A stretch of DNA of 64,000 bases. Source: Eubacteriales bacterium. Lineage in GTDB: Bacteria > Bacillota > Clostridia > Lachnospirales > Lachnospiraceae. Location: the NCBI GenBank assembly GCA_030524175.1, contig JAUNHC010000008.1:105324-169323 (forward strand). Direction: 5' to 3'. The stretch's first letter is position 1. Each line of letters starts with the position of its first letter. The position numbers were made by a program, and so were the translations under genes. Positions 11,512 through 48,734 of this stretch are shown in pieces. The notes under the pieces are model-generated. The model saw only the letters and a list, made by a program, of their open reading frames with translations. It had not been told where the DNA came from and searched no databases.

Positions 11512-13929
11512 TTATTTCTGTACAATGTTGATGATTTTCTTAGGAACATAAATTTCCTTTACAATGTTTCCGGTAAGTTTATCAGCTACAGCCTCTTTTC
11601 CTCTGGCGATGGCTTCTTCTTTGGAAATGTCGGCAGGTATGCTGATGACAACCTTTGTCTTTCCGTTTATCTGAACCGGAACTTCGATCTCATCATCCTT
11701 CATAGCTTCCTGGTCTGCTGCAGGCCAGGTGGTGTGGAATACAGAATCGCTGTTGCCCAGCTTCTCCCAAAGCTCCTCTGCAATGTGAGGGGCAAATGGT
11801 GCCAGGAGGACTACTGCTGTGCTGATGGTCTCTTTATCCACAGCTCCGCCTGATTTCTTAGCCAGGTCGATAAGCTTATTATTATATTCCATAAATCCGG
11901 AGATTACCGTATTCAGGCTGAAGCTCTCCAGTCGCTGAGTGATGTCATAGACCATCTTGTTACGGATTTTCACCATTTCTTTAGTGACCGGAACATCTTT
12001 TTCAATACTGTCTGCTGCCAGACCCCAGAAACGTTTGAGGAATCTGGAAACACCGTCGATTCCTCTGTCATCCCACTCTGCATCCAATTCCGGCGGTCCT
12101 ACGAACAGCTCATACATTCTCAGGGAATCACAGCCGTAATCACGTACTAAATCATCCGGTGACACTACATTGCCTTTTGATTTACTCATCTTGATTCCGT
12201 TTTTACCGGTGATCATTCCCTGATTGAACAGTTTTTTGAAAGGCTCATCAAAGTCTACTGCACCGATATCATACAAGAATTTTGTGTAGAAACGGGAGTA
12301 CAGAAGATGAAGTACTGCATGTTCCACACCGCCGATATACATATCTACAGGAAGGTATTTATCTGCCTTTTCCTTGGATACCAGCGCATCTTTGTTCTTA
12401 TTGTCCACGTAACGCAGGAAGTACCAGGAGGAACCTGCCCACTGAGGCATAGTGTTTGTCTCTCGTTTGGCAGGAGCACCGCAGCACGGACAGGTAGTGT
12501 TCACCCACTCATCAATACCTGCAAGCGGTGATTCTCCTGTACCGGTAGGCTGATAACTCTCCACCTCAGGAAGAGTCAGCGGCAGCTGATCTTCCGGTAC
12601 CGGAACAGCACCACAGCTTGGGCAGTGTATAATCGGAATAGGCTCGCCCCAGTAACGCTGACGGGAGAATACCCAGTCACGGAGCTTATAATTCACAGTT
12701 TTACGTCCAATACCCATTTTTTCAATGATTTCCGGTCCTTCTTTTTTCAGTACAGAGGATTCCATACCATTCCATTCACCGGAATTGATCATAGTTCCGG
12801 AAGCCTCGGTATATGCCTCTGTCATATTTTCAATTTCCTTGCCGTCCTTGGCAATTACCTGGATGATCGGAATATTAAACTTCGTTGCAAATTCAAAGTC
12901 ACGGTCATCATGGGCAGGTACGCACATGATAGCTCCTGTACCGTAATCTGCCAGTACATAATCAGAAAGCCAGATGGGCACCTTGGCTCCGTTTAATGGA
13001 TTGACAGCATAGGTTCCTGTAAATACACCTGTCTTCTCCTTATCCTGAAGACGGTCTACATTGGATTTCATAGAGGCATCAAAAATATATTTCTCTACTG
13101 CTTCCCTGGTCTCATCTGTGGCAAGGGATTTTGCCAATTCATGCTCCGGTGCAAGCACCATGAAGGTTGCACCGTGAAGAGTATCCGGTCTTGTAGTATA
13201 TACAGTGATTTTTTCTTCTCTGCCCTCAACCGGGAATTCTACTTCTGCACCATAGGATTTTCCGATCCAGTCGCTCTGCATTTTCTTAACCTTCTCAGGC
13301 CAGTCCAGTTTATCAAGATCATCTAAGAGACGGTCTGCATACTTGGTGATACGCAGCATCCACTGACGGAGATTCTTCTTTGTCACTGTGGCACCGCAGC
13401 GCTCACAGCAGCCGTTAACCACTTCCTCATTAGCAAGTCCTGTCTTACAGGAAGGACACCAGTTAATAGGAAATTCTTTTTCGTATGCCAGACCTTCTTT
13501 GAACATTTTTACAAAAATCCACTGGGTCCACTTATAGAAGTCAGGATCTGTAGTGTTCACTTCCATATCCCAGTCATATATAGCAGCGATATCATTAATC
13601 TGATTCTTAATATTCTTTACATTGTCCGCCGTGGAGATTGCCGGATGAACCCCCATCTTAATAGCGTAATTCTCTGCCGGGAGTCCGAACGCATCCCAAC
13701 CCATGGGATGAATCAGATAATATCCCTGGAGCATTTTGTAACGGCTCCATACATCAGAGATAACGTAGCCTCTCCAGTGTCCCACATGAAGTCCGTTTCC
13801 TGATGGATAGGGGAACATGTCCAGACAATAATATTTCGGTTTCTTTCCATCGTTGACGTTCACTGGATTCTTTTCCCAGTTTGTGCGCCATTTTGCTTCG
13901 ATTGCCTTATGATTATAAGGTGCAGCCAT
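11512..13929 (-). CDS. leuS: Leucyl-tRNA synthetase
   Basis: An 805-residue class Ia synthetase that charges tRNA-Leu. The HIGH-type motif is in PYPSGNGLHVGHWRGY near residues 41-56, the KMSKS loop is KMSKSKGNVV near residue 580, and a zinc-type Cys set (CPSCKTGLANEEVVNGCCERCG) is near residue 160. The editing domain occupies about residues 220-400 with the conserved TTRPDTLHGATFMVLAPEH start and GTGAIMCVPAHDDRD. Length is normal for Gram-positive LeuRS. AGGAGGAAT precedes the start. Expression is governed by the T-box leader at 14030-14285. Confidence 0.97.
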   Translation of the reverse strand: MAAPYNHKAIEAKWRTNWEKNPVNVNDGKKPKYYCLDMFPYPSGNGLHVGHWRGYVISDVWSRYKMLQGYYLIHPMGWDAFGLPAENYAIKMGVHPAISTADNVKNIKNQINDIAAIYDWDMEVNTTDPDFYKWTQWIFVKMFKEGLAYEKEFPINWCPSCKTGLANEEVVNGCCERCGATVTKKNLRQWMLRITKYADRLLDDLDKLDWPEKVKKMQSDWIGKSYGAEVEFPVEGREEKITVYTTRPDTLHGATFMVLAPEHELAKSLATDETREAVEKYIFDASMKSNVDRLQDKEKTGVFTGTYAVNPLNGAKVPIWLSDYVLADYGTGAIMCVPAHDDRDFEFATKFNIPIIQVIAKDGKEIENMTEAYTEASGTMINSGEWNGMESSVLKKEGPEIIEKMGIGRKTVNYKLRDWVFSRQRYWGEPIPIIHCPSCGAVPVPEDQLPLTLPEVESYQPTGTGESPLAGIDEWVNTTCPCCGAPAKRETNTMPQWAGSSWYFLRYVDNKNKDALVSKEKADKYLPVDMYIGGVEHAVLHLLYSRFYTKFLYDIGAVDFDEPFKKLFNQGMITGKNGIKMSKSKGNVVSPDDLVRDYGCDSLRMYELFVGPPELDAEWDDRGIDGVSRFLKRFWGLAADSIEKDVPVTKEMVKIRNKMVYDITQRLESFSLNTVISGFMEYNNKLIDLAKKSGGAVDKETISTAVVLLAPFAPHIAEELWEKLGNSDSVFHTTWPAADQEAMKDDEIEVPVQINGKTKVVISIPADISKEEAIARGKEAVADKLTGNIVKEIYVPKKIINIVQK

Positions 13930-14029: not shown

Positions 14030-14280
14030 AAGCCTTTCGTCCCTTGTCAGAGACGAAAGGCCGAAGCTTCCGTGGTACCACTCTAATTCACCGGATTTCC
14101 GGTGCACTCTTTGATTCTGTAACGGGAACTCCCGTCCGGCCCTACTTAAATGTTCAGCCCGGCTGCTCCGAGGCGAGTTCAACTCCCTGTGCATCTGCCT
14201 CACACCACCCGGCAGCTCTCTGGATACACAACAAAAATCTACTACTCCTCATCCATGCATTTCTCTGTAAACTACTTGCT
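14030..14280 (-). promoter_or_regulatory. T-box riboswitch controlling leuS (Leu specifier)
   Basis: The minus-strand leader contains the T-box sequence AGAGTGGTACCACGG at 14070-14084, a factor-independent terminator at 14028-14061 (GCCTTTCGTC/GACGAAAGGC plus TTTT), and upstream a large Stem I. In the specifier-loop position GTTGAACTCGCC carries the codon CTC at 14175-14177, a leucine codon, matching the downstream gene. Uncharged tRNA-Leu would pair with specifier and T-box bulge and allow readthrough. The 14062-13930 part continues to the leuS start. Confidence 0.93.
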
Positions 14281-21153: not shown

Positions 21154-24100
21154 TTATTTTACCGTGATCTTTCTGCTGGCAGACCAGGGACTGAACACCT
21201 TAATATTTGTTTTCTTGGCCCGGGTGTAGGAATGAAGGGCAGCGTACACTGTCCCCGGTTTTACATTGCGGAAGGTCACTGTCTTAAGGGTACTGTTCCT
21301 GTTTTTCTGTACATCAGTACCGTAATCCACCGGACGTTTCTCACCGTTTACCTTTTTGACACTTCTGCCAAGGATCACGTCAAAGCCCTTTGCCCCCTCC
21401 GGTACAGATACGGTCACAACAACTACGCCTTTTTTCGGATTGGCAGTGCTGATGACTGCAGGAGCTTCCGGTGTATAGTCGGAAACTGTAAACTCATAAG
21501 CCTTTGACCACTGGCTGAACACCTTCTTCCCGTCACTGCCTCGCAGCCAGGAATGGCAGTAAGCATAGTAGGTATCCTGCTGCACGTAAAACATGGACGT
21601 GTTTGTGAGGAGCACATTTTTGTTTACCCGGGTGTAATCCTTGTCTTTGATGCAGTTGGGGTTCGGGCTGATAACATAATCATATCCGGCCGCCCCGGCT
21701 GTCCTTTCATTCAGGGAGATGTCCACTCTGTTCCCCCTTACCTGAACAGTCTTGATCTTCGGTTTTGCCGGGCGCACATAGGTACCGTCCGGATTCCTCA
21801 CAGAGCCGTCCTGCACAGTCACTGTCCCGTCCTTGTTCACCACAGCCACATTGCCATCACTGTCCGGTTTCAATTCGGTCTTATCCTTATCGTTCAAGAT
21901 GACGGTACCGTCCGGAAGGATAACCACCCCGTCAGGTGTCACAAAACTCCCGTCCGGCTTGGCCACAGTTCCATCCGGATAATCCTCGGGTACTTTCTTT
22001 AAGAAAGAAACCGATATGGTATGTCCTGCGGTCACTCTCTCAAACTTATAAAAATCTCCCGTTTGAACCTTCTTGCCGTCCACCAGCACCTCTGCCGCCT
22101 CATATCCTTCCTCCGGCGTGAAAGTAAAGGTCTGGTCAGTGTACTCTCTTACCGATATACTGCCGGAAGGTGTGATGGTGCCATGTTCCCCTGCACTTGC
22201 AGTAATAGTATAGTAGGAGACATTGGAAGCTACAGCCCACTTTGCATACAGTGTCATATCCCGGCTCACAGGAGTGGATGTGATATCAAAATCAGAACCA
22301 TTCTCTGCAGACCAGCCAGCCAGATAGTATCCGGGTCTGGCGGGGGATACAGACGGAGGTGTCACTTTGTTCCCGGGATACACCTTAACCGTTGTATTTG
22401 TCCCTGTGCCTCCATTTACATCAAAGATTACCGTACAGCCTGCCGCAAGCCACACTTCAGTCGAAGCGTTCAGCATTGCACCGTCCTGTACCTCCAGCTT
22501 CTCAGCCTCCCGGGGGATGAAGGCAGACCAGCTTCTCGTCTCCTTATTGGGTTCATAATAAGTCCAGTCAGAAAAGGTTGGCCATGCACCATTTTTCTCC
22601 ACCATCATATCCGCATTGATCCGCAATACTGCGTCCTCCGATGCAGTCCTTACATTTTGGGCCGCAATAGCAGCATACCCTGTTTTTCCCTTGGCATAGA
22701 TTTCGCCGCCAGTGATACTCAGCATCCCCCTGGACCGAATTGCTATGTTATCTATGCTTATAGCTTCTATTTTACCGCCGCTGACCTTCATATCACCGTT
22801 GGCCTGTAAGGCACGATAGAAACCATTGGCTTTTATGTCCGGAGTCCCGATGATTTCCAGCCTGCTTTTCGTAAATATTGCGGAATCATTGGGACTTAGC
22901 GCTTGTATCCTGCCGTCTTTGATTGTCATATCTCCATCTGACTGCAGGGCGCAAAAGCCCTGAGCTTCAGCCTCTATCTCTGTTTCCCCGCTGATCTCCA
23001 GCCTGCCTTTTGTATATATTGCTGAATCATTGGTACTTAGCGCCTTTATCTTGCCTCCTTTTATCGTCATATCTCCATGCGACTGCAGGGCGCAAAACTT
23101 GTAGGCATTGGCTTCTATCTCTGTTTTCCCACTGATGGTCAGAGTTCCTTTTGTAAAGACAGCACTGTCAATTGTTGAAACAGCCTTTATTTTGCTATCC
23201 TCAATATCAATACCTGTTTCGCCATATAATGGCGGATAACAACTCCTTACATCAATATCACAGCCATTTTTGACTGTCAGTTTTCCCAGGCTGTTAATCG
23301 AATTAAATTCATTATCCACCCCCAAAACAGCGTCTATGTGTGCCCCGTCAAGCATTACTGAACTATTGCCTATGATTGCCGTAAAGTTTTTTTCTGTACC
23401 CAACAGATCGTAGTTCAAATCACTCTGTCGTACAGCAATGTCCAATCCTACAATTCCAAAGGTTGGCTGAAAACTTGGTTCCTTTACTCTTATAAATATC
23501 TTAGAATCATTCTTTATTTCAATAGATGCTCCGCCATTTCCCATGCCCATATTATAGTCTGTTATATCCAGCATCGTATTGGAAATAATTACTTTTCCGG
23601 TCTGCTGGGCGAAAACGCCGCTGAAAAAATTTGTACCTTCCTGGGTATCCGCTGCATGATTCTTCATTATAATGGAAGTATCCTGTATGATAATATTGGC
23701 ATTCACAGTATGAATACCAATAAATTCCTTGATCAGATTTTTTCCGCCACTCTCTATGGTCAGACTTCCAGGTCCTTTTATAGTCAGGTTACACTGAGCC
23801 ATTATTGCATCCCGTGAAGAATCACCCGTTACGCCAATATGATTGTCTCCTTCCAGCACAATGGTACAGTCTGTCATGGTATTCAGCCATATAAACGGAT
23901 AGGTATATACCCCGGAAATGGGGGACTCATAGTGTCTGTCAATTCTGGCATTCTTCAGCGTCAGAACATTCGTGCCTGGATCAAAAGATGCTGTTCCGTT
24001 GCCGCATGTTATTGTATGGTCCGCGTCCTGGAGAAGATCCACATTGTTCACCCATATCCCCTCGTATATTGGTATTGTAACTTCCAATTCCGAAGAAACT

Positions 24101-25827
24101 GCTTTTTCATAATAGGTGCCTTCTGATACTGAAGCAAAAAAGTAATAGGTTTTTCCTGATTCCAGGCCGGTAAATACAGGACTGGCCTGCCAGTTTGCCA
24201 CTGTCTGGCTGTCTTTGGTCAAGCTATAACCATATTGAATCCTCCCGTCATTTTCGCCTTTTGAAAGTACCGCAGTATTCAATGTCACATCCGTCCCGTT
24301 CATTGAGGGAGAACCTGACAGGGAAATCGTACGCTCCGCCTTTTTAATAGTAAGAAGCTGGCTGGCCGTATTTGAAAGCAGACCTGTACCGCCGCTGTAC
24401 TCTGCCCAAATAGTATAATTTCCTGGTTTCCACATTGGACCGGTTAGATTAATCTGGCTGCTGACAGCAATACCTTGTGATACCGACTGTGTGTCAAGTC
24501 TATTTGTGCCGGATTTAAATACCACTGTTCCTGCAGACGCCTCCGTATTCTGTACTGAATCCCAGATACTGGCATGAATAGTGATAACATCACCATAAAT
24601 CGCCTCTGTAATTGGGTTCGAGATGCTGTTTTTAATAGTCACATCCACAACCACTGATTTATTTAAGGCTCCCTGTCCTGATAGGTTCACTGATACATGA
24701 CCGCTGTAATCATTAATCACACCGCTATTGACAATTTCACCGCTGCCGATGATCTGACCTTTATTTTCTATATTTCCATTATTAGTCACTGACTTTCCGT
24801 CCGGAATATTCAGTATGGAATTTTCCGGAACAGTCATTGTACTGCCAGCAGGGATGATAAATGAGACCGGAGCCGATACAGTTCCATATACAGTTCCCTT
24901 ATCTCCTTCAAAAATTACACCCTGTATCTTGCTTACAATCCCCTGAGGTCCTGCGATGCCTCCCGGCCCAATAAATCTGTTTCCGGACGAATGCGTAAAG
25001 ACTACCACATTTCCATTAAAAATAATACTCTGTACCCCTTCGTTTGAGCCTCCGCCAATGGCCGCACAGCCTCTGCTTGTAGCATCAACAAAAGCGCTTT
25101 CAGCAACCAATATATCACCGCTGTCTCCATTGGAACCCCCGCCGATTCCTGCCCCATTGAAACCTCCTGTTGCTGTAACTGTTGCATTACCTTTAATTGT
25201 GACAGTACCTCCTGACCCATTGGAACCGCCGCCAATTCCTGCGCTATTGGTACCTCCTGTTGCTGTAACTCTCGCATTGCCTTCAATTGTAATTGTACCT
25301 CCCGTTCCATTGGAGCCGCCTCCAATTCCTGCCCCATTTGTACTGCCTGCCGCAATCAATTCCCCTTCTCCACTGATCGTCAGCATAGAAGCTGTATTAA
25401 TCTGAAGACCCGCATAAGAAACACTACTACTGCTGTCCAGAGTATTTCTGGTGTTCTCAGCTAACGTAAGATTTACAGTTGCATTGTCCACTTGAAAAGC
25501 ACATTTATTTACACGAATTTCCACCCCGTTGAGGGTAATATTATGTGCCCCGCCCTTAACCTTTATGGTATACGTAGTTGTACTTCCAGTGATAACATAA
25601 CCAGCTGAATTTGGCACATTAACCTCATTTCCTTCTTTATCAAAACCGGATATCATATTGTCATCTATTTCAATATTTCCTTTGCTGATATCAAGTTCTG
25701 ACTGGCTGCTGTCTCCCAACAGCAATTCGCTGTTGTCCTGAAAATCAAGACTGGAATCATCTGAAGAATTATCACTTTGAAAAATATCCCCGCCGGAATT
25801 ATCCAGAGAATTATCACTTTGAAACAC
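21154..25827 (-). CDS. Large secreted repeat protein, main frame (signal peptide in another frame)
   Basis: This frame gives 1557 residues without an export signal. It joins the signal-peptide frame at 25848-26051 if the G run at 25871-25880 is 11 or 8 long instead of 10, giving about 1632 residues. From the N-terminus: a low-complexity Ser/Asp-rich stretch with repeated QSDNSxD; tandem beta-helix-like repeats (GAGIGGGSNG...VTATGG, three copies) near residues 165-240; a carbohydrate-binding/pectin-lyase-like middle with four ~40-residue repeats containing CALQSxGDMTIKxG near 22700-23180; an InlB-B/Flg_new repeat (YYLAGWSAENGSDFD...LYAKWA); a PDG-rich linker; and two copies of the C-terminal module also found in the proteins at 14358 and 17018. 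A surface adhesin or glycan-binding role is inferred. Confidence 0.75.
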   Translation of the reverse strand: MFQSDNSLDNSGGDIFQSDNSSDDSSLDFQDNSELLLGDSSQSELDISKGNIEIDDNMISGFDKEGNEVNVPNSAGYVITGSTTTYTIKVKGGAHNITLNGVEIRVNKCAFQVDNATVNLTLAENTRNTLDSSSSVSYAGLQINTASMLTISGEGELIAAGSTNGAGIGGGSNGTGGTITIEGNARVTATGGTNSAGIGGGSNGSGGTVTIKGNATVTATGGFNGAGIGGGSNGDSGDILVAESAFVDATSRGCAAIGGGSNEGVQSIIFNGNVVVFTHSSGNRFIGPGGIAGPQGIVSKIQGVIFEGDKGTVYGTVSAPVSFIIPAGSTMTVPENSILNIPDGKSVTNNGNIENKGQIIGSGEIVNSGVINDYSGHVSVNLSGQGALNKSVVVDVTIKNSISNPITEAIYGDVITIHASIWDSVQNTEASAGTVVFKSGTNRLDTQSVSQGIAVSSQINLTGPMWKPGNYTIWAEYSGGTGLLSNTASQLLTIKKAERTISLSGSPSMNGTDVTLNTAVLSKGENDGRIQYGYSLTKDSQTVANWQASPVFTGLESGKTYYFFASVSEGTYYEKAVSSELEVTIPIYEGIWVNNVDLLQDADHTITCGNGTASFDPGTNVLTLKNARIDRHYESPISGVYTYPFIWLNTMTDCTIVLEGDNHIGVTGDSSRDAIMAQCNLTIKGPGSLTIESGGKNLIKEFIGIHTVNANIIIQDTSIIMKNHAADTQEGTNFFSGVFAQQTGKVIISNTMLDITDYNMGMGNGGASIEIKNDSKIFIRVKEPSFQPTFGIVGLDIAVRQSDLNYDLLGTEKNFTAIIGNSSVMLDGAHIDAVLGVDNEFNSINSLGKLTVKNGCDIDVRSCYPPLYGETGIDIEDSKIKAVSTIDSAVFTKGTLTISGKTEIEANAYKFCALQSHGDMTIKGGKIKALSTNDSAIYTKGRLEISGETEIEAEAQGFCALQSDGDMTIKDGRIQALSPNDSAIFTKSRLEIIGTPDIKANGFYRALQANGDMKVSGGKIEAISIDNIAIRSRGMLSITGGEIYAKGKTGYAAIAAQNVRTASEDAVLRINADMMVEKNGAWPTFSDWTYYEPNKETRSWSAFIPREAEKLEVQDGAMLNASTEVWLAAGCTVIFDVNGGTGTNTTVKVYPGNKVTPPSVSPARPGYYLAGWSAENGSDFDITSTPVSRDMTLYAKWAVASNVSYYTITASAGEHGTITPSGSISVREYTDQTFTFTPEEGYEAAEVLVDGKKVQTGDFYKFERVTAGHTISVSFLKKVPEDYPDGTVAKPDGSFVTPDGVVILPDGTVILNDKDKTELKPDSDGNVAVVNKDGTVTVQDGSVRNPDGTYVRPAKPKIKTVQVRGNRVDISLNERTAGAAGYDYVISPNPNCIKDKDYTRVNKNVLLTNTSMFYVQQDTYYAYCHSWLRGSDGKKVFSQWSKAYEFTVSDYTPEAPAVISTANPKKGVVVVTVSVPEGAKGFDVILGRSVKKVNGEKRPVDYGTDVQKNRNSTLKTVTFRNVKPGTVYAALHSYTRAKKTNIKVFSPWSASRKITVK

Positions 25828-25847
25828 AGGTTCTTGATCCTCTGATA

Positions 25848-26051
25848 CTACAGCGTCATCTCCAAAAATACCCCCCCCCCTTGCTGGCCGGGGATATTGT
25901 CATTTACTTGCGCCTCTCCGTCTGTAAATGCTGTTACTCCTCCATCAATAACAGAATCCTCTGCTGCCATTATGGCAGAGGGAAACTGTGTCAGGGCTAA
26001 TACAGCGCAGAGCAATGATACTACTAATCTTTTTGCTAACTTATTTTGCAT
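25848..26051 (-). CDS. Signal-peptide exon-like fragment of the large secreted protein
   Basis: The frame opens MQNKLAKRLVVSLLCAVLAL...SAIMAAEDS, a clear signal peptide with AxA-type cleavage, behind AAGGAGG. It runs through the G tract as QQGGGVFLEMTL and stops. The downstream frame carries the remaining protein. With one more G the reading continues as QQGGGGIFGDDAVVSEDQEPVFQSD into the large frame. In the state sequenced the gene is off, making only a ~67-residue product. Confidence 0.8.
   Translation of the reverse strand: MQNKLAKRLVVSLLCAVLALTQFPSAIMAAEDSVIDGGVTAFTDGEAQVNDNIPGQQGGGVFLEMTL
25871..25880 (-). repeat. G(10) homopolymer at the frame junction
   Basis: Ten consecutive Cs on the plus strand (G on the coding strand), 57 codons into the gene. 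Lengths 10 and 9 lead to early stops; 8 and 11 join the frames. This is the classic layout of a slipped-strand phase-variation tract, or a homopolymer sequencing error. Confidence 0.9.
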
Positions 26052-26311
26052 ACTTTTCCTCCTTGGAAATCCTAAATAATTTCAGAAAAGGACAAAAGAA
26101 ATCCCCTGCCTTCCCCGGGTTTACTTTCAACAAGCAGTACCCATAATCTTTGTTACAGTACACATAATAGATTCATCCTCAACTGCAGGCAGGCATTAGG
26201 CCTGTTACATTTTACACCTCCTTCTTCTTTTCAGGCATGAACAAATCCGTTCATATGCCCGTAAACGACAACAGCGAATGGCCTCAAGGCCATTCGCTGT
26301 TAACTCCTATA
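26052..26311 (-). promoter_or_regulatory. Long structured 5' leader of the phase-variable protein
   Basis: About 260 bases separate the promoter from the start codon. The transcript would begin about nine bases before a perfect 14-base-pair hairpin with a 4-base loop (AACAGCGAATGGCC at 26270-26283 against 26288-26301), then a GGCATGAAC/GTTCATATGCC hairpin at 26234-26259, then GAAGGAGG followed by ATGTAA, a start codon directly followed by stop. The remainder matches no riboswitch class I know. Confidence 0.5.
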
Positions 26312-26317
26312 TATTTC

Positions 26318-26346
26318 ATTATATTTGTTAAGTACCGGGTTGTCAA
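26318..26346 (-). promoter_or_regulatory. Strong promoter of the phase-variable surface gene
   Basis: Minus-strand TTGACA and TATAAT, both consensus, with 17-base spacing. Confidence 0.8.
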
Positions 26347-44166: not shown

Positions 44167-47100
44167 CTAAAAATCCGTAAACATTCCTTCCAATTCCCAT
44201 TCAGACTGCGTCAGATCTCCTGAATCAAACATATCTTCAGAAGGATGTTCTACTGCCTCGGGAAGAATCTCCGGCTGTGTCTGGGAAGAGTTATTTTCCT
44301 CTTCCTGTACTCCTCCGTCTCCGCCGTATACATCAGTATCACCTTCCTGCATATTTTCATCCGGAAGCTGAACAGTATCCTCAGATTCTACAAATCTCAC
44401 AGGTTCTTTTCCTTTTTCGTAAACCTGACCTGTTTCCTCAATGTGATAACGCATAACCGCTATAGTCTGGTCAATTTCTTCCTGGGTTGCCTGGCTCTCC
44501 AGGATAAATTTCTTATCCTCCATGGCAAGTTTCACATTCATGAGCCTTGTCTCTCTGTGATTCAGGGCCGGGTCCACATAATCAAGACTTGTCATTTTCT
44601 CTGCAAAAGCGAAAATATCTTCAAGCTCACTTGTATCGGTGAGCAGCTTCAGCTGTTCAATCCCTTCTTTGAGGGCAGCTACAGTAAGATCTGTCTCCTC
44701 CTGGGATGCATTCTTTCTTTCATATACTTCCTGCGCCTGCATCAGCACGCCCGCAAATACCTCCCAGCTTTCTGCTGTATATTTCTCTTGTTCCAGTTCC
44801 TGTGCCTGGCTGATAAGCTGGAAGAGATCATCTTTTTCTGCTTCTTTTACAGCGGTGAGGAACTTGGCATCAGCCCAGTTGGCATGATCGTTGCCATTTC
44901 CGTTTCCTGCTGCGGTCACTACAAGCTTCAGTTCTTTTGCATTGGAAACATCCACACAGAACTGTACTGCCGGAGTTCCTTTTCTCATAACAGGTGTCTC
45001 CCCGGCCAGCACTCCGTCCACATAAATCTCGAAGGTGACAGAAGATACTGCGTTGCCTGCTGTATTGTCAACGCCTGCATCACTTGTAAAGTAATAGTAA
45101 TCCTTATCTGTCAGATCATAAACTACTTCTGAGTAAGCATGTACCCCAAGTCCTTTCTCGTAAGTTCTTACTCCATCATCTCCTGCCAGTGTGATTGCTT
45201 TGCCGTTTAAGGAACGGTCCTTCTGTATCTTGCCCCAGCCAACCTTGGCACTCTTCCAGTCTGTATCGCTGGCATAAACAAAATCATTGACCACTACAAT
45301 TTTTCTGGCAACACTTGTAGTATTTCCATCGGAATCTGTAACAGAATAGATGATGTCAAAGCTTCCTGTCCTGCCTTCCTGGAAATTAGTGTCATAAGAA
45401 ACTGCACCTGTGAGGTCACCGTCCTCCACATCCTCAGCAGTAACCTGGCTGATCACTGCCCCCAGATCAACACTTTCCGGATTCAGGAAGGTTGCATTGC
45501 GTGCATGGATAACCGGTACACTATTGCTCGTAGCCACTCTTGCACCGCCCCACACTGTGTGATCGCTGCCGTTAGCTCCGTTGCTGTCTGTAATAAGCTC
45601 CAGCGTATTTACATTTCTCATATCAAGCTTTACATATTCTGCGTCTGTGTCAGCCTTCATGACTCCGCTTTCGTAGACAACAACTCCGTCAGCAGCTACA
45701 CGGAATTTTGCATTGGCTGCTTTCGCACCCTTTACAGCCTGGTCAATACCTACATAAGACTCAAAATATGTATACTTACCCTGGAGATCATATATTACAG
45801 AAGAGGACGCATGTGTTCCCAGTCCCTTGGAGAAGGTCACCGGAACCTGATTCCGCAGTAATGTAATAGTTCCTCCCTTTATGGATTTATCCTTCATAAA
45901 GCTGCCATAACCCACAGATGCACTTGTCTCCTGTAAATCTGAGAGATAAGTAAATCCGCTTACTACTTCGATATCCACAGCAAGCTGTGCCGTATTTCCT
46001 TCTTCATCTGCCACTTGGTAAACAACCTGATACATCCCTCTTGCTGATGTGTCTACATTATTTTCCGCAACAGTGATATTTGCCGTGATATCTGTTCCGT
46101 CATAGCTGTTTGCTCTTACCAGATCCATAGGCTGGAATACACCTCGAAGGGGTACCATAGTACTGCCTGTCACCTGAATAGACGGACGTCTGAAATTTAT
46201 TTCTTTTGCCTCACTTACTTCAGAGGCATTAAGACGGAGATCATAAGCTCTCACTGTATAAATATGTGCCTGCCCGTCATCCGTATATGTACCGGTGAAT
46301 GATTTACCGGAAGTAAAGCCAAGTACCTTGCCGTCCTCCATCACCTCATAACCAAGAAGTGCCTGGTCTGCACTTTCATCTATAGAAAGAGTGACAGTGA
46401 AATTGCTGCCGTTTTTTGTGATATTTGTAATTTGAGGAATATAATTCTGCCCAAATGTACTTACTCTGTCCTTTGTGGCTTTTGTCCACAGATACCATGG
46501 CTTTATATTTTCTGAAGCCTTCGGAATATTTAAAGAAGCCAGGGCCTGGTCAATATTTTCATTTCTCTCCACAAATTTGTAACGTTCAAAATGCTCAATA
46601 ACATCCATTCCTACAGCATAGCAGGATACTACTGCCATACGTTCCTTTTTCGTAAGGCCTGCATCCTTAAGCAGATTCTCACGGTAAGCACTCTGATAGT
46701 TTCTCCAGTAATCCTCATTCAGAAGATATAGCTGCCAGAACATAGCTAATTCATTATTTCCGCTGACCAAATCAGCATAATCATCAGATGCCTGGTTTTT
46801 AAATATATTTCCGTATTTTACACGATCACTTTCATTCTGCATATCTACTGCAATGCGGTTGGCCCACATATTGTTGGTAACCTCTGCAATACAGCCCTCA
46901 CGGGTATCCAGCTGATGTCCCAGTTCATGGCTGTACAGCCATCCGGTCAGCTCTCCCCGGAAAAAGGTATTGATACTGCCCTGCTGTACTCCCACATGGT
47001 CTCCTGCCGCATAACCTGCCGCAAAAGGCTGCATCAAGCGTACATTAGCCCTGGAATTATATCTTGAATGTATAAATTCTCTGTCATCTATTCCTGCAAA

Positions 47101-48447
47101 ATCCAAAAGCTGTTCCTGGCGCAGATCATGAAAATCCAGTACAGCCTGAGGAGTTTTTCCATTTTTGAAGAAAGTGGCAGCAGATTTCATATTTCCGTTC
47201 AAAAGAATTTTATCACTGCACAACTCCACAACATCCACTGTTGTTTCCGGATAGGCTTCCAGCTTCTGCTTATATTCCTGCAAAAATTCCAGGAAAGCCT
47301 GTTCATTGTCTCCTTCCCGGAACAGAGGATATTTCTCAGCTCCTTCTATACGGATCCTTGGGGCCGCTCCCTGTTCTTCAGGCGTATAGGGATTCAGAAT
47401 ATAGATGGCACCGCCAGGGATTGCTTTATAACTCCATGAATCTTTAAAGATTTTTGGTACTGTAAATATATTTTCTCCCTGGTGGAGTTTCTTCGTTCTG
47501 TACCAGTCAGAAAATTTCCCTACCTGCTGAGTAAATATAACAGAAGGCAGCGGTGCTCCTTCCTCCACATCTACGTAAATCTTCACCTGGTCTCCGGATA
47601 AAGCAGCATAGCCAGTAGGAAGCATATCTGTAGAATAACCTCCGGTACGCAGCACTTTCGTGGAATGTTCCCTTGTAGCGCCTCTCTGCTCTACAGTAAA
47701 AACTTCACTTACGTAATCTACTTCACCTCTCTGGATATCCAATGCCTTCTGTACCTTCTCTTCCAAATCAGGATCAGGGTGAGCTTTCGCTCTGTCCAGC
47801 ATTTCCTCCAGTACTTCCACGTTCTGATACTCCGGCTTCAAAGCTGTCATGGTCCCGTCGCTGAAAATCTGCGCAACCTCCTTGGGAAGTAAATCCGGAT
47901 AGTAAAACATCATTTCTGCACCTGCAGCCCAATTCTGATTTGCCTTATCAAACACAAATTTCAGACGCTGGAAGGACGTTGGTTCAAATTCTATTGTTGC
48001 CGCACCTGAAGCGACTGCCGCACTTCCGTGTGTCACAAGTTCAAAATCATCACCTGATCCACTGTCTGAAGCATAAACTGAATATTCTGTTGGGAACCCC
48101 TTATTTGCCGCACCGTTTTTTCTTGGATAGTAAACAATACTTCCAAGTTCTACTGACTCATCAAAGGTAAACACCACCTCATTTTTAAATGTAGTGCTGT
48201 TAGGTTTCCCTGTCTCCCAGTGTGTTGACGTATTTCCGTCAATCAGATATTTCAGTTCACTGGCACCATATTTACCTCCGTTATTCTTCACATTCTCAAT
48301 GTGGTCGCCGGACAGCTTAAACATTGCGTCATAAGCTCCACTGAAATCTGAATCTGCCGCCTGTACAGGCTTGGCAGCTCCCAGAAATATTCCGCCTGCC
48401 AGAAGTGCAGACAAACATAACATGGGAATCACTTTTCTGTTTCTCAT
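44167..48447 (-). CDS. Secreted M60-family metallopeptidase with NPCBM and Ig-like domains
   Basis: A 1426-residue exported zinc protease of the M60/enhancin group, enzymes known to cut mucin-type O-glycoproteins. Signal peptide at 1-30 (MRNRKVIPMLCLSALLAGGIFLG); an F5/8-type-C-like domain at ~35-175 (DGNTSTHWETGKPN); the M60 core with zinc motif HELGH at ~507-511 and the further Glu at ~522 (HELGHQLDTREGCIAEVTNN); then Ig-like (DUF5011-type) and NPCBM domains alternating, with VTFSKGLGTHASSSVIYDL near 880 and YEKGLGVHAYSEVVYDL near 1105; a FIVAR-like helical domain near 1220-1300; and an acidic tail. The start fits the signal peptide and AGGAGG. No sorting signal. Controlled by the riboswitch upstream. 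Confidence 0.9.
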   Translation of the reverse strand: MRNRKVIPMLCLSALLAGGIFLGAAKPVQAADSDFSGAYDAMFKLSGDHIENVKNNGGKYGASELKYLIDGNTSTHWETGKPNSTTFKNEVVFTFDESVELGSIVYYPRKNGAANKGFPTEYSVYASDSGSGDDFELVTHGSAAVASGAATIEFEPTSFQRLKFVFDKANQNWAAGAEMMFYYPDLLPKEVAQIFSDGTMTALKPEYQNVEVLEEMLDRAKAHPDPDLEEKVQKALDIQRGEVDYVSEVFTVEQRGATREHSTKVLRTGGYSTDMLPTGYAALSGDQVKIYVDVEEGAPLPSVIFTQQVGKFSDWYRTKKLHQGENIFTVPKIFKDSWSYKAIPGGAIYILNPYTPEEQGAAPRIRIEGAEKYPLFREGDNEQAFLEFLQEYKQKLEAYPETTVDVVELCSDKILLNGNMKSAATFFKNGKTPQAVLDFHDLRQEQLLDFAGIDDREFIHSRYNSRANVRLMQPFAAGYAAGDHVGVQQGSINTFFRGELTGWLYSHELGHQLDTREGCIAEVTNNMWANRIAVDMQNESDRVKYGNIFKNQASDDYADLVSGNNELAMFWQLYLLNEDYWRNYQSAYRENLLKDAGLTKKERMAVVSCYAVGMDVIEHFERYKFVERNENIDQALASLNIPKASENIKPWYLWTKATKDRVSTFGQNYIPQITNITKNGSNFTVTLSIDESADQALLGYEVMEDGKVLGFTSGKSFTGTYTDDGQAHIYTVRAYDLRLNASEVSEAKEINFRRPSIQVTGSTMVPLRGVFQPMDLVRANSYDGTDITANITVAENNVDTSARGMYQVVYQVADEEGNTAQLAVDIEVVSGFTYLSDLQETSASVGYGSFMKDKSIKGGTITLLRNQVPVTFSKGLGTHASSSVIYDLQGKYTYFESYVGIDQAVKGAKAANAKFRVAADGVVVYESGVMKADTDAEYVKLDMRNVNTLELITDSNGANGSDHTVWGGARVATSNSVPVIHARNATFLNPESVDLGAVISQVTAEDVEDGDLTGAVSYDTNFQEGRTGSFDIIYSVTDSDGNTTSVARKIVVVNDFVYASDTDWKSAKVGWGKIQKDRSLNGKAITLAGDDGVRTYEKGLGVHAYSEVVYDLTDKDYYYFTSDAGVDNTAGNAVSSVTFEIYVDGVLAGETPVMRKGTPAVQFCVDVSNAKELKLVVTAAGNGNGNDHANWADAKFLTAVKEAEKDDLFQLISQAQELEQEKYTAESWEVFAGVLMQAQEVYERKNASQEETDLTVAALKEGIEQLKLLTDTSELEDIFAFAEKMTSLDYVDPALNHRETRLMNVKLAMEDKKFILESQATQEEIDQTIAVMRYHIEETGQVYEKGKEPVRFVESEDTVQLPDENMQEGDTDVYGGDGGVQEEENNSSQTQPEILPEAVEHPSEDMFDSGDLTQSEWELEGMFTDF

Positions 48448-48530
48448 AACTTTTCCTCCTTCTGTTCCGCTGCAAATGCAGCCTGATATTTCCGATTCCA
48501 GGACGGCCAAATAGAACACGCTCTACTATA

Positions 48531-48583: not shown

Positions 48584-48628
48584 ACTCTACACAAGCAGAA
48601 TCCAAAAGCCAGCTTCCGTGCTGGCAGA

Positions 48629-48703
48629 TGGGCAACCGGCTGTCATACCTTAATGGCTATAGACCCTGTGGCTTTGCGTCCTTATCTTTTGATAAGTTTG
48701 CTG
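48629..48703 (-). promoter_or_regulatory. GEMM-I (cyclic-di-GMP-I class) riboswitch
   Basis: The minus strand reads GCAAAC, a TTATC/GATAA hairpin with an AAAA loop, GGACGCAAAGCCACAGGG, then a second arm and GCAGCCGGTTGCC-like closing (ACAGCCGGTTGCC). These are the fixed bases of the GEMM-I aptamer: the closing GGTTGCC pairs with the opening GCAAAC. Members bind cyclic di-GMP; a subset binds 3',3'-cGAMP. A terminator follows, so the ligand would switch transcription of the M60 metallopeptidase gene. Whether it turns on or off is not evident from reading alone. Confidence 0.88.
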
Positions 48704-48734
48704 AATATATTTATCTTACCGAATCGGCATTTAA

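Follow-up and report, generated by a model that had tools for sequence, protein, structure and literature searches.

Is a run of ten Gs that sets the signal peptide and the body of a large, apparently exported protein in different reading frames a genetic switch, an error of the assembled sequence, a sign of gene decay, or a site of recoding? The gene in question lies in a 64-kb stretch of DNA (hereafter, the window) from a draft genome (G000) that is 5.95 Mb in length, comprises 119 contigs and likely derives from a gut Firmicute. As judged from sequence, the run is probably a contingency locus subject to slipped-strand phase variation, and one locus of a set.

Structure of the interrupted gene

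The gene is encoded on the minus strand of the window. From its predicted promoter onward, its parts are as follows:

26318..26346, minus strand: predicted sigma-70-type promoter, TTGACA-17-TATAAT, matching 12 of 12 consensus bases, approximately 270 nt 5' of the start codon
26270..26301, minus strand: perfect palindrome with 15-nt arms and a 2-nt loop, just past the predicted transcription start
26058..26064, minus strand: Shine-Dalgarno sequence AAGGAGG, read from the sequence
25848..26051, minus strand: upstream ORF by translation, 57 codons plus the tract, with a stop within 8 codons
25965..26051, minus strand: signal peptide MQNKLAKRLVVSLLCAVLALTQFPSAIMA, assigned by eye
25871..25880, minus strand: G10 tract, the proposed slippage switch, from the sequence and run counts
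21154..25869, minus strand: body of the predicted exported protein, an ORF of 1571 codons that G10 places in a different frame from the signal peptide

An ATG at 26051-26049 opens the 57 codons (MQNKLAKRLVVSLLCAVLALTQFPSAIMAAEDSVIDGGVTAFTDGEAQVNDNIPGQQ) that lead into the tract, and the upstream frame closes beyond it at a TAG (25850-25848). The preliminary description of this DNA had placed ten Gs 57 codons past the ATG, and exactly ten are found there, at 25871-25880. Beyond them, the downstream frame runs from 25869 without a stop for 1571 codons, its stop codon ending at 21154. From the frames as read, that description was also right that eight or eleven Gs would join the two parts into a protein of about 1632 residues, whereas nine or ten lead to a stop. 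In the downstream ORF, a GTG at 25827 is the earliest start codon in frame, and we saw neither a ribosome site nor a signal peptide there.

In the region scanned for promoters, two sites with nine or more matches were detected, versus 1.3 in shuffled sequence. The palindrome is contained in a 128-bp leader element (26170-26297) with one further copy in the genome, at 78% identity (C46:14761-14886, L002), approximately 2.8 kb upstream of a paralog of the gene on contig C46. The locus shares two features with slipped-strand contingency loci: a long simple repeat occupies the 5' part of the coding sequence, where insertions or deletions shift the frame (G10 after codon 57), and the gene is otherwise intact and equipped with expression signals, which we recognized by consensus.

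In the mechanism we propose, slipped-strand mispairing during replication would add or remove Gs at the tract. In some cells, the signal peptide would then share a frame with the 1.57-kilo-residue body and the protein would be exported; in other cells, corresponding to the assembled state, translation would end within about eight codons of the tract. We infer that tract length changes within the population, reversibly and under selection, and that the cell surface is where the protein works, in contact with host or glycans.

An invertible segment was an additional candidate. A 16-nt inverted repeat (25722-25737 / 26267-26282, 94% complementary, 529 nt apart) encloses the leader, the signal peptide and the tract; one of its arms is coding and nothing else favors inversion, and we rejected this candidate. 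The repeat is either due to chance or an old invertible segment. A scan of viral contigs found the window locus in none of them.

Within the body, sequence searches detected two domains and a shared C-terminal region:

22690..23181, minus strand: Cthe_2159-type carbohydrate-binding match, PF14262 (Pfam, E 1.2e-14)
22240..22434, minus strand: Listeria-Bacteroides repeat, PF09479 (Pfam, E 5.5e-11)
21157..21843, minus strand: C-terminal region common to a protein family in G000 and related genomes (sequence search)

A beta-helix repeat also matched in Pfam, under the cut-off. The protein has no NCBIfam match and no sequence relative in the PDB at E 0.01, and by eye its C terminus (ending ...FSPWSASRKITVK) shows no LPXTG, the motif of the Bifidobacterium breve type of sortase-dependent pilin. 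Some part of it is matched at E 0.001 in 26 of 60 genomes of the genus, its own included, most often the last 230-270 residues. At E 1e-20, the first 896 residues of the body are matched in only two of 64 genomes, G000 and its relative G053. A role as an adhesin is something we can only infer from predicted export together with the carbohydrate-binding-like (PF14262) and repeat (PF09479) domains.

Length and position of G tracts

Within the window, the G10 tract is the sole G/C run longer than 6. Matches to G7 number four, versus a mean of 8.2 in shuffles of the window; a run of such length is not rare by composition alone. The departure from chance lies in the length spectrum and the genomic position of the tracts. 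G000 contains 43 G/C runs of 7 or more, 20 of 8 or more and 15 of 9 or more (exact lengths: 23 runs of 7, five of 8, six of 9, six of 10, three of 11, none longer). A steady decay from the 23 runs of 7, calculated with two measured ratios, predicts 0.2-1.9 runs of 9 or more, compared with the 15 seen. The long tracts are therefore an unusual length class and not the tail of a decaying distribution, with an absolute count that is below a dinucleotide null. This null expects about 30 runs of 9 or more, and we therefore rejected the idea that G tracts are over-represented in absolute number; for runs of 7 or more, it gives 477 versus the 43 present, making it a poor null for either side, and the case rests on the shape of the spectrum and on position.

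Position was scored by a mechanical rule with thresholds of our own, under which a tract splits a gene if an upstream frame with a start ends soon past it and another frame continues for at least 100 codons beyond. The rule misjudges some tracts, among them L206 and L183; at the latter, in genome G028, the start of the regulator itself seems to lie past the tract. By this rule, six of the 15 tracts of 9 or more in G000 split a frame, versus 6 of 138 G/C runs of exactly 5 in the same fetched DNA (Fisher 2e-4; 16 control runs near an end were dropped), and, as a point against a switch, none of the 15 was classed as in frame within a long gene. When G000 was pooled with the related genomes G053, G028, G021 and G044, 21 of 82 tracts of 9 or more split a frame, versus 16 of 312 exact-5 runs from the same loci (Fisher 4e-7; 59 control runs near an end dropped). 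The coding strand is the G strand in 18 of the 21 splits, versus 8 of 16 control splits (8 G, 8 C). Thirteen more tracts of 9 or more are in frame on the G strand, all in G053, G028, G021 or G044. Slipped-strand phase variation, which the preliminary description had put forward for this one gene, is supported by these comparisons and would be wider than it. No other reading is as well supported, given that the tract belongs to a set and that some relatives show the pattern of G000 again.

The same counts weigh on the strongest competing explanation, an error of homopolymer sequencing or assembly, in which the true tract would have another length and the gene would always be read through. Suspicion is warranted for a tract of ten in a 119-contig draft that is the single genome of its species in this comparison. 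However, an error would need to recur at many loci, given 18 coding-strand splits versus 13 read-throughs, as classed by the rule, among 82 tracts in five assemblies, and tracts of 9 or more are also present in G001, G044 and G052, assemblies with no more than two contigs each. Moreover, 21 of the 31 A/T runs of 7-8 in the window sit within long ORFs without cutting them, in a comparison where the long ORFs were picked as open and genes already in short pieces are absent from the list. We consider such an error unlikely.

Copies of the gene and of its tract

G053 has a full, uninterrupted ortholog of the window gene, 1650 residues long when counted from the first ATG and free of any G tract. 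The absence of a tract there, which weighs against the switch, indicates that the tract is lineage-specific. Alignment of the body to this ortholog covers 1562 codons at 58% identity, in keeping with the earlier statement that the gene has no other defect. Identity at codon positions 1/2/3 is 71/76/42% over the aligned codons, a pattern that points to constraint on the protein across that divergence; the comparison spans the whole separation of G000 and G053, and not only the time since the tract arose. Decay, in which the frame would be lost and never regained, does occur in this protein family: the paralog on contig C46 (L042:6690-6800) has a G9 tract and a second frameshift without a homopolymer, which makes it look like a real pseudogene. 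In the window gene, by contrast, 1571 codons contain no other defect, and the promoter-like site, ribosome site and signal peptide have all been kept, so that decay is highly improbable here.

Further copies were compared for the length and phase of their tracts. In G021, a pair of paralogs whose leaders are very similar by eye, with identical bases on both sides of the tract, has G9 in frame in one copy versus G7 out of frame in the other; in the G9 copy, signal peptide and body share one frame of 1216 codons. Three tracts are orthologous by DNA between G000 and G053. At the tract of a type IV prepilin (L038/L148), the lengths are G10 and G11 and the adjoining bases are equal, a true indel. 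Two candidate length differences, L046/L138 and L049/L151, were ruled out by alignment, which places a substitution at the tract edge without a net indel. The orthologs L046 (G000) and L138 (G053), with flanks that are 84.5% identical, keep the same out-of-frame phase in two species, as would fixed recoding, that is, transcriptional slippage or ribosomal frameshifting at the G run that yields some full-length protein and leaves the locus leaky instead of off; we find this explanation very hard to credit, since other tracts are found both in and out of frame and the same phase in two copies is not improbable by chance.

Tracts also lie near related regulators. L183, a LytTR-type regulator of G028, is 51-55% identical to relatives found in G000, G053 and G021, and all four have an upstream tract (9, 9, 10 and 9 in G028, G000, G053 and G021, respectively), at differing distances. 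Separately, an inverted repeat whose arm includes a TATAAT-like box was noted by eye before both G-tract paralogs of G021 (L111, approximately 1750-1793 and 12412-12454).

The wider set of tracts and its known counterparts

Apart from the window gene, tracts of 9 or more in G000 were assigned to the following positions, with domains from Pfam and signal peptides read by eye:

L042: splits the gene of an LRR protein with a signal peptide
L043: splits the gene of a large exported protein soon past the signal peptide; no Pfam match
L046: splits the gene of a large exported protein soon past the signal peptide
L048: splits an acyltransferase 3 gene
L052: splits the gene of a 7TM sensor histidine kinase
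L037: 6 nt 5' of the ATG of a MerR regulator
L038: 33 nt 5' of a type IV prepilin
L049: upstream of a LytTR-type regulator, assigned by similarity to L036 and L126
L051: between a GHKL-kinase-like gene and another, assigned by similarity to L036 and L126
L044: approximately 330 nt 5' of a gene with a signal peptide
L047: at the end of a cytidylyltransferase gene
L050: at the end of the gene of a GGDEF protein

Counting the window gene, 13 of the 15 tracts were assigned, all but L035 and L045. The splits in G000 thus fall on four exported proteins (the window gene included), one acyltransferase and one histidine kinase. One of the five runs of 8 also splits a gene, that of a LytTR response regulator (L036). 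Over all genomes with tracts, the genes concerned, among them glycosyltransferases, acyltransferases, FdtA, a D12 DNA methyltransferase, solute-binding lipoproteins and regulators, are of kinds that are typical of contingency loci. By eye, the prepilin tract (L038:5039-5048, L148:4076-4086) could form a stem with a C-rich stretch upstream; as one side of a stem, its length could change the structure of the 5' leader. No Rfam family was found at the tracts of six fetched loci, the prepilin tract included, the only matches being two S4-Clostridia leaders in L049 and L151, more than 3.5 kb away.

G053 carries 32 tracts of 9 or more (ten of 9, seven of 10, nine of 11, four of 12 and two of 13). 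Pfam scans of the neighboring ORF, for 14 of the 32, connect tracts, whether inside a gene, at its end or between genes, with glycosyltransferases, FdtA, acyl- and hexapeptide transferases, a D12 DNA methyltransferase, an HD response regulator and a GHKL domain. A G9 tract (L137:4140-4148) splits the gene of the D12 adenine DNA methyltransferase, and it is possible that the methylome of G053 is phase-variable through it. All 12 of the runs of 8 or more in the G028 genome are of 9 or more; other genomes of the genus lack this pattern, G039 having one such tract among 84 runs of 7 or more and G032 none among 28. Across the family, at least one tract of 9 or more is present in 96 of 150 genomes surveyed, and ten or more in 11 (G000 included); most genomes of the genus and the family have few. 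The 126 tracts of 9 or more that G209, one of the 11, carries in 1.6 Mb may be a matter of composition.

A genome of another genus, G170, has 31 tracts, of which 21 were classified and one at a contig end was dropped. On the G strand, seven are in frame and five split a gene; L206, in frame by the rule, is actually a lipoprotein gene with its signal out of frame. The excess of splits is weak in this genome (5 of 21 versus at most 11 of 75 controls). Five of the 21 tracts lie behind the lipobox region, as read by eye, of solute-binding proteins (L203, L204, L206, L211 and L220). Run lengths in the fetched DNA are ten of 6, one of 7, none of 8, 16 of 9, five of 10 and, at a contig end, one of 23; since this DNA was selected around tracts of 9 or more, we give the gap at length 8 no weight.

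Mismatch repair genes were searched in seven genomes. All seven have mutS over the cut-off, in one frame in six and in pieces at contig ends in G032, and mutL is in one frame in six, being split only in G000 (L198, C71:20000-26500). There, the break falls in the linker between two domains, at a site with no A/T run of 7 or more and no G/C run of 6 or more. The presence of mutS and mutL in relatives means that the tracts need not be very unstable. If the mutL split is real, the G000 strain would be a mutator with faster slippage; tracts are also found in genomes with intact mutL.

The closest known case appears to be a switch at sortase-pilus loci of B. breve, in which slippage at G tracts was shown by maximum-depth sequencing and pilus-like structures were seen once the frames were joined (PMC9187656). 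In both instances, the organism is a gut commensal (likely so here) and a G tract separates two ORFs, one with a Sec signal and the other encoding the exported body. As described in that report, however, B. breve is an Actinobacterium with two pilus loci that have LPXTG and sortase (PMC9187656), whereas the genome here is Clostridia-like, we saw no C-terminal LPXTG, the tracts are spread over many unrelated gene classes and slippage is proposed.

In scale, the set resembles the phasome of Campylobacter, for which 18 to 39 potential phase-variable genes are reported among C. jejuni strains, with many loci per genome, surface glycan genes, a minority of intergenic loci and high locus turnover (PMC8355987). 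The Campylobacter tracts are mainly G9 and G10 (PMC8355987), inside the range found here, and G000 and G053, with 15 and 32 tracts of 9 or more, likewise each carry G tracts of about 9-11 at numerous surface and glycan genes. C. jejuni is described as lacking functional mismatch repair (PMC8355987); in the seven genomes searched here, mutS and mutL were detected, with mutL split in G000. As in Helicobacter canadensis (PMC2823697), promoter, 5'-coding and 3'-coding positions of tracts are all present, those at ORF ends including L047, L050, L128, L134, L139 (4190) and L144 (both). In that species, which also has C-terminal switching, length variation was shown in sequencing reads (PMC2823697); the nearest counterparts here are the G7/G9 paralog pair and the G10/G11 ortholog pair, both at loci other than the window gene. 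A survey of 99 prokaryotes found too many poly(A)/(T) runs and, beyond 2 bases, generally too few poly(G)/(C) runs, and treats homopolymers close to the 5' end of a gene as switches (PMC2831843), an arrangement like that of the window gene. In Clostridioides difficile, pdcB and pdcC switch by invertible promoters (PMC11868660). Among the matches listed in open-licence papers, judged by title and the start of the abstract, there was no report of G-tract phase variation in Lachnospiraceae or related gut Clostridia. The mechanism is known from Campylobacter and Bifidobacterium; here it would act at a set of loci, in a group for which these matches gave no report.

A broader proposal, on which we are evenly divided, is that several lineages of one gut Clostridia family have a G-tract phasome. 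A dozen or more switches of 9-11 Gs per genome would randomly toggle the expression of exported proteins, sugar-coat enzymes, solute-binding lipoproteins, a DNA methyltransferase, a type IV pilin and LytTR-type regulators, with a frameshifted mutL raising the rate in the window's strain. If true, cells would come to differ by frameshift in glycan uptake, phage and immune targets, adhesion and signaling, much as cells of Campylobacter and Neisseria do, and working genes may have been entered in genome annotations as pseudogenes or as two separate genes.

Two regulatory elements elsewhere in the window were also noted. A c-di-GMP-I riboswitch lies at 48628-48712 (minus strand), upstream of a large ORF (44167-48519), and a T-box leader at 14046-14264 (minus strand) precedes an ORF (11512-13929) that we take to encode leucyl-tRNA synthetase.
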